Source: Cliona cf. orientalis (taxonomy: Eukaryota; Porifera; Demospongiae; Clionaida; Clionaidae). From it: a stretch of DNA of 64,000 nt. The position numbers and the translations under genes were made by a program. Where the stretch lies: positions 1,261,501-1,325,500 of the forward strand of contig OZ005699.1 of NCBI GenBank assembly GCA_963930775.1, read 5' to 3'. Below are positions 16,401 through 31,400 of the stretch, piece after piece. Numbering within the stretch: the first letter of the stretch is position 1; each line of letters opens with the position of its first letter. Below the pieces are notes generated by a model, which saw only the letters and a program-made list of their open reading frames with translations, ran no database searches and was not told where the DNA came from.

Positions 16401-19400
16401 AACAATACTACTACGCTTGCATGCGAAAATTAAAAGGAGCAATATATTACTTTAGTTCTTACGTAGGTATTAATTTTGCCAGTATTTATATAATAGCGTA
16501 TATTATTATTATAATATAATAATTATTATCCTAGCTTATTGTGTGCCATGGTGCTGGGACTTACCGGGAAGAGCACCTCCAGTTATGTTTCCAGTGGTCA
16601 TGGAATAGGCTGAAGGATTTAATAATAATTATTAGGATACAATTACTGAGTGACACATCCACACCCCAGCGGTTTTTCTACATATAATATATGGGGCCAA
16701 GAGGGGGAATCTTCCCTTCCCCCTTCAAAATTTGAATGCATACATGTATAATCAAGCGGTCAATATCTGTGGTAATTTTCCAAAGTAATTCCACAATGCT
16801 AGGATGCTCTATGCACATAGTATAATTATATCCATGAGGTCTAGAGCGTGCTTTTCAATCCATCTTCCCATCCTTCCCCCTCTTTCGAAAATTTCTACGA
16901 CAATCCCGTACCGAACCGCCAAATTTAAATCCGCTAATACTCTTGCAATAGCTTAACCGCCAAATATAATTCCCGCCAATATTTCCGGCTATACGGTATA
17001 ATATACTATACTCACTCACAAACACACACACACATACACACGCAGGGTTTCATCCAGTTGGGGAGGAGGGGGGGAAGCTTCCCCTCCAAACTCCCCTAAG
17101 AATTTGACTTTAATTAAATTAAGCATCATACTATCACAATAAGTCACCAAATCAAATCACTAGCATTTGTTTTTGATCAAAAATTACCCGAAACAATCTG
17201 GAGGAATTCTCCTAAAATAGGTCTCAAGGAACTTTGTGTGCTGAATACACCCACTCATTTATTGCGCTTCCACCCCAAATTTTTGTCGCTAGATGAAACC
17301 CTGACACGGTATACTTACTCTCATACACATCGTTGGTCCCACTCAGCAAAGCAGAGCGTCCAAACTGAGCTGGTCCTGAATTTATAGGTCCAGTGGCGTT
17401 GCCATTACTGACTTGATAGAGAAAAGCCTGTCCACGATAATTCAAGGCTCCGGGTGCCCCAAGTGAAATAAACGCCTACAGATGTTCATTATTCAGAATC
17501 ATAATTATTTTACTCATACAATGCATATATACTTATAATATGTATCCCAGATGGGTGTATTTTGGGTGGAGTTATCAACTATTTTGGTTAATATACATGT
17601 ACCACATCAAAGAAAAGTGGATATAGAAGGCATAGGGGGCCAGAGGGCTGGAGGCCGGGGGCCGGGGGGCCGGGGGGCTATGCTGAAAAAGCCTAGAGGG
17701 AACTCTGCAGACTCTTTAATTTACCAAATGACACTAATACTTGGCAAAGGTCGTCATATGTACATGTTGCAAACGGACAAAGGATGCATGTGTGTGCGCA
17801 ACTGGAAACGGTGAATATTTACCATAGAGAAGCTAGCTTGAGCATAATAATGATTATTACCAAAAATTTAGGAAAAATACGGGTAATATTAATATTATGT
17901 GTACCTCGCTGTCGTTTTGGTTGATAACGGCAGAAGTGCCGGCAACACACCTGTTAACACCACCACCGGCAACATCACGGGTTGGAGCTGTATGGTGAGT
18001 GTAAGAGTGTGTGTGTGTGTGTGTGTGTGTGTGTGTGTGTGTGTGAGGAGTATATGTGAACATGAGGGAACAGAATAGAGGTTCATTACTACGATAACAC
18101 TATTATTATTATATTATTGATTGCAACTTGATTAATTAAAGGAGATGTCCTCATTTCAGGGGTGTCCTCATAGATAGATAGAGGGTTTCAGTTTCACTGT
18201 ACAGGTAGATAACCATGTACACACACTATTATATACAATCGTACCACAAGGTCTCATTTCTCTGAATCCAGTCAGGTCTCTCTGGGAGTAGAAACAGCGA
18301 CCAATTTTACGTCGTCTGTCGATATGCATCAAATCACTCTCCATGAAAGATATGGTGAACTGGGGAGCACAGGCCTGCAGGTAGTGAACGAGAAATAATT
18401 GAAATCACTGTTACGGTAGCCTCGTGAAAAAGACATGCAGCAACGCGAATGACCACGTGGTCGATCGAGCGATTGGCTACGCTCCTCAAATATATATAGG
18501 GCCGTTGCTGTCGTGAATCCACGTGTGTACTTGGATGTAGCAATTTCTAGGAACATCTCGCTATTAGGCACTATATATATTCATTGACTCAACATGCTAT
18601 AATAATAATATTATTATAAGCAATTGGAAGTGAACAAATTTCAATTTTTGTGGATTGTACATGTATACCAGTATACTAGTTGACAACGAAAATTTCCTGA
18701 CTTATGATTATATAGCTGCCTTATACACATGTACATGATGTGTGAATATTATTATGTGACCAGCTGTAAAGAGGGACCACCTGGGATTTCTTGTTTGTAG
18801 TATGTAGCTTGCTGTGTGTATGGAGTAATGTACTGCACGCATGTACATACAATATTATACTCACTACCACATTAATTTTGTAGAAAGCAAGTTGGACCAT
18901 AACATCATAATAAAAACAAACTTTTTTTTCATACTACCATCTGGTCTCCTTTTATAGCAGTTGACTATGTTCCAGGCAAACGTTTGATCATGCCAGTGAT
19001 TATCAATCTTCCAAAATGAGTAGTCCCAGTAGAAACAACAGTAGTATTCACTCCAAGATAGTTGAATCTAACCTACCAGCACAATGGGGTTTCCCCTCCC
19101 AGTGGCTGACCACTCCCATCAGTGTGGGCCAGAAGCCCCAGGATAGTGGTCCCCTGGGGGGGGGGGGGGGGGGGGGGGGGTGCTTCCTCTGGACAGCCTG
19201 CTTCCTGTTTACTACTATTTCTGCATAGCATTTAAGATCAGACTACCAGTGATAAGATCACTCTCGACATTATATTACCGGTATAGTACTAACGAAAGGT
19301 CTTGAGTGAAGTATCATAATGAAAGAAATTTCGATATTAACTGTGCTCATTGTAAGAATCGCTGTTGTGGGCTCAATTTTCATAGTAGCATCAGTTTTTG

Positions 19401-28400: not shown

Positions 28401-31400
28401 TAGTCGGCGCCAACTACAGTCAAGCCCTCCAGTGAGCCTCGCACTCCACATTTATATCAGTAAGTATTATTTTGCACATGCATTGTCAGAATGCTGTGAA
28501 AAAAGCTCTATAATATTAGGTAGAATGTGGGTGGGTGGGGGGGGGGGGGGGGGGGGGGGAAGGGAGCTGAACAAATCTAAGGCTACCTCATAGGTTCACC
28601 TCCTGTATATAGCATAGACATAGCACAATCGGGGGGCCAATGGGCTATGCCCCCCAAGCAAGTATACATAATAGTTAGACACCGAGGACAAGGGATCTAT
28701 AGTATTTAGCATCCCGATGGCCCCGAGCTGTGACACCCAATATACTTCATAACAAGACTTCCCCTCTCTCCCGCTACCCAATAGATACAGCTCCGCCTAC
28801 AACACCTTCCATGGAATTCACACCTACGACACCTCTAGCGGAAGGTATGTATGCTTGGCAAGGGTAGCATACTTAGAGCAGTCGATCTTGCATGTATTAT
28901 TTCACGTGCAGGATTGCCAGCTGCAGTTATTGTACCAATCATCTGGGTGTTTGCCATACTTGTTGTAATAGTAATAGCAGTCATTATAGTCATTATAGTG
29001 GCTTTTCTTGTCTACTGTGCTGGAACTCAACGCAGAAGAGGTCAATCGAACATCTACGACCACGTACCTGTACCTCCCCTTCCACCGCACACACAGAGAA
29101 TGATTATTTCTAACAACAATACGCTGGGATACTCTCAGTCTGAATCAAAATCTCTAGACAATAAATTTGAGAGCGAACACGACGAAAGCGGTGAATTTGT
29201 AACATCACAATTTCCGTCCACTAATCCCGATGATTCTTCTACTCTTTCAATTGGTCCAGGGCCGGATTCACCTTCAGAGAGAGCTAATCTTCCACTGAAT
29301 CTCGCCACCGATGACAGGGCAGAAAACCCAAATGATGAGTTTGGAGTTATACCAAGTCCAAATGTTATCGAGAATGTTTCATATCAGCCAAGTACCAGAT
29401 TCAGTCTAGAGAGAAATCCTGCTTACGGGACCGATATAGCCATCGCCCCTGAGATTGGGACCAGAGCAAATGTAGCTTATGAACACACAGTTTCAGTATG
29501 TCCCTCTCTAACTACTACTCTCGATGTAGCAGTCAGCACGACACTGCCATCTTCTCCCATGCATTCGATTGAAACAGATTTGCCTTTCGAAAGAGCTGAC
29601 GATGGAACTGGATCTGACCTTCACCCGTCGAATCCAGAACTTGGAGACACCACAGAAGATTATAATACAGGTACATGTAGCACAGAAAACTCGAACAATG
29701 AGAGCAGAGTGCAACGTCCTACGAGAATTGGAGCTAATACTGGTCCCATTTACGCCAATGCCAAAATCTCCATTTAGGAGACTAATAATTATTATAGGTA
29801 CTGCTCCTGATACGAGAATACATGTTCTAACCAACAATTCATGCAATTTTGTTAAATGTCACAGTTATAATAAAAATTATAACTTGGTTTCTCATCTTGA
29901 TTATGCACGCAGACTCGACTATTTTCTTAATATGGTTGCTCAGAATGCACTAATCAGTCATTCAAGGGAAATCCATACAAATAGAAAATCCCTATACAAT
30001 GGTTAACCAATATTATCCGTTTGATGGTTAAAATTGGTCACTACGTACTAGCAAACAAAACCAGCCTCCATGGATCAGTGCCGGCAGGACTGATTGCTTG
30101 ATCATGAAGGGGATGGGAACAGTGGTATAATTATGGGTATGTAATAATAATAATATAATTAATTATTGAAGGGAGTCTGAACCACCAAGGTTAAAATATC
30201 CAGACGCGGCGTCTCCTGCATGCACAGCATGCCTCAGGCAGGCCCGGGCCAGAAAGGTCCACCTGCTCGACTTGAATATAATTAAAAAAGAACATTAAGC
30301 ACCCAGCGGCTTCAGGGAGAATCCCTGCAGGTGACATCATCATTACATCACCACACTTCATCACAGTAACTTGGGCAAACAGATTTTTTTTAATACATAA
30401 ACGACCCCTTACCACATTTATAAAGCTGTACAATACTCCACCTACATGTACAGGAATCATATTGCGAGGCCTCCGAAGTTGAATTTCTTCCGTTAATACT
30501 TGGATCATGCAATGTACGTATTATTCGAAGAATTAACTTACGACAAACAATTCTCCTGAGCTGATAAGAGTAGCTCCCATCTGCTGGCCTGACTTGAGCT
30601 CGCGGACGTTCAGCTGATTTCCATCATTGGGATCATTTATGTTGTTAAGCACAACTTCATCAGCTGTACAGATTCAAAGAAAGTAACAAGTCAATCATTA
30701 TAACTATATATTCCACTCCCCCGGGCCCTTTGTGCATGCATGCATAACAATTAACCCATGTGCCTGTGCATGCATGCAGTTCTGCATTGCTACTGTTGTT
30801 ATAATATATTATGCCAAATCTCGAGGTCCACAGAAGCATCACAAATAGACGATGTACACTATGTCGACGACCCTTTACCACATGCACCATTTCTAACATA
30901 ATAATATTATATTATTCCCAGTAGCAATTTACTTTTCTGTGGTTATGAGGCAATTGTGGTGTAACCTATGGTGAAATTATGATGAAATTATGATGCAACC
31001 TATGAGGTAATTATGAAAAAATCCAGGGCCTCGCTGGAGCCTTTCTGGGACTTGAAAATCAGTAAATATGTAGAGTATCTTACGCGTGTATCCAGCGAAT
31101 ACATTTTAAGCTGAGCGCTACTTTCTCTGAGAAGTACTGTTGGTTGAACTTCACGTGTTTTCTTGGCTTACGTAATGCCGTGGATAAATAAAGTTAGCCT
31201 TGTGCTATATATAGCACGCATCATTGTCACAAGGGGCTGGCCCGCGCGAGACTGCAGCAGCGCGACCAACCTGAAGTTCGAAAGGAATACTGTGCTATCG
31301 AGTTTGTCTCTGTGATTGAATCATCGAAATTTGTCGCTATCAAGGTTGAGAGTCGATCTTAGACGCCATCTCCATGATTTCTGAGGGCCAGCATCAATCG

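Follow-up and report, generated by a model that had tools for sequence, protein, structure and literature searches.

The closest described counterparts of the locus analyzed here are genes that lie within introns of other genes. Intron 30 of human NF1 holds three coding genes, OMG, EVI2A and EVI2B, all antisense to the host (PMC4394429); tandem families within a host are described for human KRTAP5 in MOB2 (PMC4394429) and for the insect TipE cluster in CG18675 (PMC3240667); and vertebrate LRRTM adhesion-protein genes lie antisense in large introns of alpha-catenin genes, together with which they were duplicated (PMC3933685). This study concerns a 64-kb stretch of the genome of the demosponge Cliona cf. 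orientalis, hereafter the window, which appears to belong to chromosome 11 (C11:1261501-1325500), and in which three paralogous receptor-like genes with two immunoglobulin (Ig)-like exons each, named R1, R2 and R3, are nested, in antisense orientation, within the third intron of an integrin alpha gene, named integrin A.

Nested genes are numerous in several sponges, with 2,432 listed for Aphrocallistes vastus (12.4% of genes), 3,358 for Amphimedon, and 5,032 for Sycon (PMC10282587, Table 1); the same source lists 83 for Oopsacas and none for Ephydatia, and attributes the low counts to annotation settings. In humans, most nested genes reportedly have no functional relation to the genes that host them (PMC4394429), and the nested TipE genes are reported to correlate with one another and not with the host (PMC3240667). 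For the Caenorhabditis elegans pair ceh-10/polq-1, it is reported that a nested gene on the opposite strand can induce its host (PMC12274878).

We examined the integrin gene, its paralogues, the nested receptors and their relatives elsewhere in the genome, since a first-pass annotation of the window had presented the arrangement as unusual and as a candidate for an undescribed system. Sponge adhesion molecules and an Ig-domain receptor kinase of Geodia cydonium are membrane proteins with two Ig-like domains, and Hydractinia Alr and similar allorecognition families of the Ig superfamily (IgSF) comprise Ig receptors that are encoded in clusters and bear tyrosines in their tails. Ig-like sequences in an adhesion molecule of Geodia are mentioned in PMC11999971. 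Among the titles and abstract openings listed for sponge IgSF proteins, allorecognition, the immunoreceptor tyrosine-based inhibitory motif (ITIM), nested genes and nesting in integrin alpha genes, none described such a sponge cluster, most subscription papers lying outside the coverage of this search.

Results

Integrin A and its nested genes

Exons 1-15 of integrin A were assembled by hand on the minus strand, from 39170 to 14756, giving a model with GT-AG at all borders and 536 codons without a stop. Its product matches integrin alpha-V over residues 168-536 (E 1.1e-40), the values for alpha-V, alpha-5 and alpha-IIb ranging from about 1e-38 to 1e-40, and the FG-GAP repeats recognized by Pfam (E 1.8e-24) mark it as an integrin alpha subunit. 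The junction between exons 3 and 4, GELFV/ACAPQF, sits within the alignment with alpha-V; therefore, the segments 30663-30542 and 18374-18245 are consecutive exons separated by a single intron of 12,167 bp, as had been proposed from their in-phase join. The 13 other measured introns span 62-6,861 bp. In the 3' part of the gene, read by eye, a hydrophobic, putative transmembrane (TM) exon near 8390 is followed near 7990 by CGFFRRKK, a candidate for the membrane-proximal tail motif of the GFFKR type.

R1-R3 lie on the plus strand, antisense to integrin A. The three genes are paralogous, intact and spliced, and their coding exons (19319-29777) all fall within the intron (18375-30541), which makes them nested (intronic) genes. 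R1 (19319-21761) has five exons and encodes 659 amino acids, R2 (22984-26054) has four exons and encodes 618, and R3 (27648-29777) has four exons and encodes 562. Exon borders are GT-AG, introns are in phase 1, and the frames stay open up to the terminal stop. All three share one layout: a hydrophobic leader precedes two Ig-like exons, and a stalk connects these to a TM helix with its long tail. The earlier description of three complete antisense receptors thus holds, as does that of a signal peptide-like start and a TM helix, since each product has a hydrophobic N-terminus and one internal hydrophobic region; direct repeats likewise confirm three tandem paralogues. Domain 1 of R2 lacks the conserved CR cysteine kept by R1 and R3, though the R2 frame is open. 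Long G runs are present upstream of R1 (about 19155-19180) and R2 (about 22827-22848), the leader sequence being otherwise similar.

The paralogous integrin locus

A second integrin alpha gene, named A', lies inverted about 190 kb away on the same contig (C11:1476737-1484036). Its exons 3, 4, and 6 align with those of integrin A end to end at 96.7-97.7% identity, exon 1 aligns throughout, interrupted by small gaps (93.6%), and the alignments of exons 2 and 5 lack the last 5 nucleotides of each. Intron 3 of A', located between the same two exons, measures 3,607 bp. From exon 3 inward, A' matches window positions 30802-30512 (95.5%, including exon 3) and then 30333-29354 (89.0%), a block corresponding to the antisense of the R3 end; there follow a match to 18732-18662 (84.5%), about 2.3 kb of other sequence with a dispersed repeat, and a match to 18570-16946 (89.6%, exons 4-6). 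Because the R3 piece in A' is split over two frames, it is a frameshifted relic, which argues that an R3-like gene lay in this intron before A and A' separated and that A' later lost it while keeping the integrin exons seen. As stretches around R1 and R2 are 93-97% alike, compared with 89% between A and A' for the end of R3, R1 and R2 may postdate the A/A' split, a dating that is unsafe given possible exchange between the copies.

The relic also bears on whether the cluster belongs elsewhere and was misjoined into the intron. Curation of the assembly corrected 201 misjoins or missing joins and removed 81 haplotypic duplications (PMC12639293), which counts in favor of such an error; nevertheless, the A' intron contains the end of R3 beside matching flanks, the window contains no N, and the integrin exons join in phase. 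An artefact of this kind is hardly credible, and the assembly join error against which the first-pass annotation had cautioned was rejected. An unmerged haplotype of A is likewise not favored as the identity of A'. The 3.7 kb upstream of A' contain no window match at E<=1e-10, which argues for a paralogue and not a second haplotype; moreover, the long blocks are 86-96% identical, and A' is inverted on the same contig.

Reverse-transcriptase open frames were noted just upstream of A'. The dispersed repeat occurs at window positions 31491-30911 and 12186-11697, in two introns of integrin A, as well as in A' intron 3 (C11:1480977-1481549). No pair of inverted repeats of >=60 nucleotides, as a sign of transposition, was found within the intron, and a tRNA scan of the window found none. 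In a further integrin paralogue within the window, named B, the intron at the same place spans only about 71 bp, between 51537 and 51465 (tblastn ends).

A multi-locus receptor family

Searching the genome (216.8 Mb in 149 contigs; the published assembly comprises 217.17 Mb in 307 scaffolds, PMC12639293, some short ones of which seem to be missing from the sequence searched) with the Ig2 exon (exon 2) of R1 yielded at least 41 matches, 38 of them outside the integrin A intron; these counts are lower bounds, and some matches are pieces of one exon. In addition to the three in the intron, 18 matches are located on C19, four at C4:7.17-7.22 Mb, six at 3.25-3.70 Mb of C4, five on C14, two at C11:3.13 Mb, and one each on C1, C12, and C16. 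The largest receptor cluster found, C19:1347957-1398528, carries its 18 matches in about 50 kb on both strands. The nearest outside receptor (C1:4253706-4257026) stops just past the TM helix and is therefore tail-less beside its long-tailed relatives; downstream on the same strand lies a separate long frame resembling a seven-helix receptor. No host gene was seen by eye on either flank of this receptor, the only outside place examined for nesting. No relatives of the window's Ig2 exons were confirmed in prokaryote genome contigs or viral contigs (tblastn, E<=1e-3).

From loci covering 30 of the 41 matches, after contained and short pieces had been dropped, 29 Ig1-type (exon 1) and 29 Ig2-type sequences were gathered, including R1-R3 (26 and 26 further ones), a few of them partial; 19 Ig1 and 17 Ig2 members, picked by eye as complete and non-redundant, were used for profiles. 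Ig2 matches V-set at E<=0.01 in 13 of the 17 members scanned, the profile matches JAM-A at E 1.3e-6, and the hallmark residues C29, W44, D85, Y90, and C92 are invariant (17 aligned of 29), which supports a V-set-like domain, with the window copies scoring under the Pfam curated cut-off. Ig1 matches V-set_CD47 at E<=0.1 in 6 of 19 members (best E 0.005). Its profile matches FAIM3 at 0.014 and Fc receptor-like protein 5 at E 3.1e-5, although in the latter case no single stretch passes by itself; the 19 aligned members share a GxYxC motif and a cysteine that hardly varies. Of the two Ig domains claimed earlier, the second is therefore borne out as V-set-like, and the matches of the first are weak. 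No kinase match was found in R1-R3 in the domain scan.

Selection and similarity among the copies

Tail omega amounts to 0.39 (0.27-0.54) for R1-R3 and 0.41 (0.28-0.58) for R2-R3, values that indicate purifying selection on the tail in two of the three comparisons, the two older ones. For Ig1, omega is 1.22 (R1-R3), 0.92 (R2-R3), and 1.39 (R1-R2), every interval including 1, so that positive selection on this exon is unsupported; Ig1 may be either free or diversifying, the data fitting both alike. Corresponding values for Ig2 are 1.00 (R1-R3) and 0.61 (R2-R3). Similarity among the copies is mosaic: R1 and R2 are closest over most of the gene, R2 and R3 over much of Ig2, and two adjoining tail windows (from codon columns 501 and 521) show 97-98% identity between R1 and R3, compared with 81-89% before them and 93%, then 60-83%, after them. 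A run of agreeing sites as long as that of R1-R3 arose in 7 of 10,000 permutations, and sequence exchange among the copies is likely.

Tandem copies, mosaic similarity, membership in a big clustered family, and an Ig1 omega around 1 next to a tail constrained in two of three pairs are also what would be expected of allorecognition or immune receptors under diversifying selection, that is, of a sponge histocompatibility-like locus. Such a role is possible but doubtful, because omega never significantly exceeds 1 and falls below 1 for Ig2 of R1-R2, relaxed constraint accounts equally for the Ig1 values, R2 has lost the conserved cysteine of domain 1, and the sequence comes from a single genome.

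Tail motifs and a shared cassette

Each of the three tails carries one NPAY (0.07-0.10 expected in shuffled sequences) and one PLPPR/H, and at the motif level they are NPxY tails; 14 residues after NPAY stands NIAY in R1, NVAY in R3, and SIAY in R2. Apart from R1-R3 and the A' relic, the module N(P/S)AYGTDIAIAPEI...N(I/V)AY recurs at the places given in Table 1, as shown by searching with the tail of R1 and with a C12 version; the latter search returned 17 matches, with three weak ones uncounted (C2, C1:2.93 Mb, and a second piece in a C12 frame; E 1.1-1.8). The segment PPLPPRxxRxDSGxYDTISN is common to the C1:7.19 Mb frame, R1, and R2, and is not found in R3. Upstream of the C1:7.19 Mb tail, frames on the same strand match fn3 (E 3.7e-11) and two Sushi domains (4.2e-8 and 1.3e-7), a third frame being unmatched; upstream frames on C12 and C14 gave weak Ig matches under cut-offs, and two of the four matched nothing. 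One tail cassette is common to predicted receptors with differing ectodomains, the exons at each locus presumably being joined into one gene.

Integrin beta tails carry a tandem NPxY/NxxY layout, which NPAY-x14-NxAY in R1 and R3 resembles. This resemblance, the nested position older than the A/A' duplication, as judged from the R3 remnant in A', and the precedent of ceh-10/polq-1, where an opposite nested gene is reported to induce its host (PMC12274878), could point to functional nesting, in which position couples R1-R3 to integrin A, either through co-expression in the same cells or because convergent transcription makes them mutually exclusive, a single locus thereby setting both adhesion and recognition. 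We consider this unlikely: no intact receptor remains in A', although its integrin exons are kept as far as seen, 38 of the 41 Ig2 matches lie elsewhere, SIAY replaces NxAY in R2, the nested TipE genes are reported as uncorrelated with their host (PMC3240667), and for most human nested genes a functional relation to the host is reported to be absent (PMC4394429). A Cliona modular receptor system, with one cassette on several ectodomains and nested receptors competing for, or feeding into, integrin adaptors, would be more improbable still in its integrin-adaptor part, the likelihood of which is lowered slightly by the second-site SIAY of R2 and by NSAY as the first site of the C12, C16, and C4 copies.

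Table 1. Features of the integrin A locus and occurrences of the tail module. Plain positions refer to the window.
Feature	Position	Strand	Basis or remarks
Integrin A head (FG-GAP beta-propeller), exons 1-15 as modelled	14756..39170	-	hand assembly, Pfam, protein match
Integrin A exon 3 (...GELFV)	30542..30663	-	96.7% nucleotide identity to A'
Integrin A exon 4 (ACAPQF...)	18245..18374	-	97.7% nucleotide identity to A'
Integrin A intron 3, 12,167 bp, cluster host	18375..30541	-	GT-AG, in-phase join, alpha-V collinearity
R1 exon 1: hydrophobic leader and Ig-like domain 1	19319..19718	+	gene model, hydrophobic start
R1 exon 2: Ig V-set-like domain 2	19772..20218	+	gene model, Pfam, family profile
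R1 exon 3: Thr/Pro stalk	20472..20573	+	gene model
R1 exon 4: stalk	20658..20717	+	gene model
R1 exon 5: TM helix, then long tail (PLPPR, NPAY, NIAY, single ITIM-type VIYANV)	20791..21761	+	
R2 exon 1: hydrophobic leader and Ig-like domain 1, without conserved CR cysteine	22984..23368	+	
R2 exon 2: Ig V-set-like domain 2	23422..23784	+	gene model, Pfam
R2 stalk exon	24873..25001	+	gene model
R2 TM helix and tail with PLPPR, NPAY; second motif SIAY	25075..26054	+	
R3 exon 1: hydrophobic leader and Ig-like domain 1	27648..28047	+	gene model, hydrophobic start
R3 exon 2: Ig V-set-like domain 2	28097..28459	+	gene model, Pfam, V-set
R3 short stalk exon	28785..28844	+	gene model
R3 TM helix and tail with PLPPH, NPAY, NVAY; 3' part is the piece surviving in A'	28912..29777	+	
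Integrin A intron stretch absent from A' intron	18733..29353	.	A' alignment: window 29354 (A' 1480304) to window 18732 (A' 1480329)
Tail module, first site NPAY	C1:7189000-7194500 (7.191 Mb)		upstream frames fn3 and Sushi
Tail module, six places, NSAY at first site in copies read	C12:1378352-1424309		
Tail module, NSAY at first site	C16:1611055		only tail frame recognized
Tail module, NSAY at first site	C4:7288675 (7.289 Mb)		only tail frame recognized
Tail module, first site NPAY	C14:4688216		

Discussion

The probable explanation of the locus is incidental, ordinary nesting of a multi-locus two-Ig receptor family in an integrin intron. Before the A/A' duplication, one family member would have settled, in antisense orientation, within intron 3 of the integrin alpha gene ancestral to both; in A, it would have been retained, giving the present three tandem copies with their mosaic similarity, and in A' it would have been deleted down to the frameshifted tail fragment. 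Each receptor would most likely be transcribed from its own promoter, because each has its own start, splice sites, and stop, with the integrin pre-mRNA spliced around the three genes. The products would most likely be type I surface proteins whose faster-changing Ig ends would bind ligand and whose more conserved tail, with its SH3-type PLPPR/H and NPAY, could recruit SH3 and PTB/SH2 adaptors for signaling or uptake; in that sense, the long tail would be the signaling tail suggested in the first-pass annotation. The further suggestion of an unusual, undescribed system that could link receptors and integrin in expression is not upheld, given the thousands of nested genes in some sponges, the precedents of NF1, KRTAP5/MOB2, and LRRTM, the loss of the receptor from A', and the 38 of 41 Ig2 matches elsewhere. 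The proposed linkage of the receptors with integrin A in inheritance is trivially true through position.

Several observations weigh against parts of this account. AlphaFold models built with three sequences gave low confidence for both Ig exons (mean pLDDT 41 and 37), and the fold of Ig1 is weakly assigned. The contrast between constrained tail and freer ectodomain does not extend to R1-R2, where tail omega is 0.72 (0.42-1.31), an interval reaching past 1, and Ig2 omega is 0.57 (0.35-0.95), so that Ig2 is constrained in that pair. Runs of agreeing sites are significant in the other two pairs as well (0 of 10,000 permutations); with long runs significant in all three pairs, uneven rates contribute, and they may account for the mosaic instead of exchange. 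The sole strict ITIM is in R1 (0.37 expected by shuffling) and none is found in R2 or R3, so that, in a search of the members' tails for [ILVS]xYxx[ILV], the R1 count is within chance and the receptors do not qualify as ITIM inhibitory receptors. Transcription of the receptors and of integrin A is predicted from gene models, and the suggested order of events is read off a single paralogue pair.

Incidental nesting would add a sponge case of a host duplicated along with its nested gene, followed by disappearance of the nested gene from one of the two hosts, and the loss in A' suggests that such nesting can be dispensable. The locus also brings to notice a clustered Ig receptor family in a non-bilaterian animal. 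We consider the tail cassette more interesting than the nesting itself; although its function is predicted from motifs, its presence on differing ectodomains could help to probe how recognition receptors were assembled in early animals.

Among known receptor systems, the Geodia receptors resemble R1-R3 by description, and R1-R3 have no kinase match. The likeness to Hydractinia Alr is likewise one of description, the ITIM being present here in one of three copies, at chance level. Closer parallels are found among nested genes. Like R1-R3, the NF1 trio consists of three coding genes antisense in one intron; unlike them, it is not described as a set of tandem paralogues in the source that reports it, and its host is neurofibromin (PMC4394429). 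LRRTM genes share with R1-R3 the antisense position of adhesion-protein genes in a large intron, co-duplication with the host, and the loss of host or nested gene in some lineages, but there is one nested gene per host, the domains are leucine-rich repeats and not Ig, and the arrangement is reported for most jawed vertebrates (PMC3933685). The TipE cluster (PMC3240667) and KRTAP5 (PMC4394429) resemble R1-R3 as tandem families within a host; they encode other proteins, and TipE is conserved across insects, whereas R1-R3 are known here from one genome. Between them, NF1, KRTAP5, TipE, and LRRTM provide a precedent for every element of the nest of R1-R3 in integrin A.

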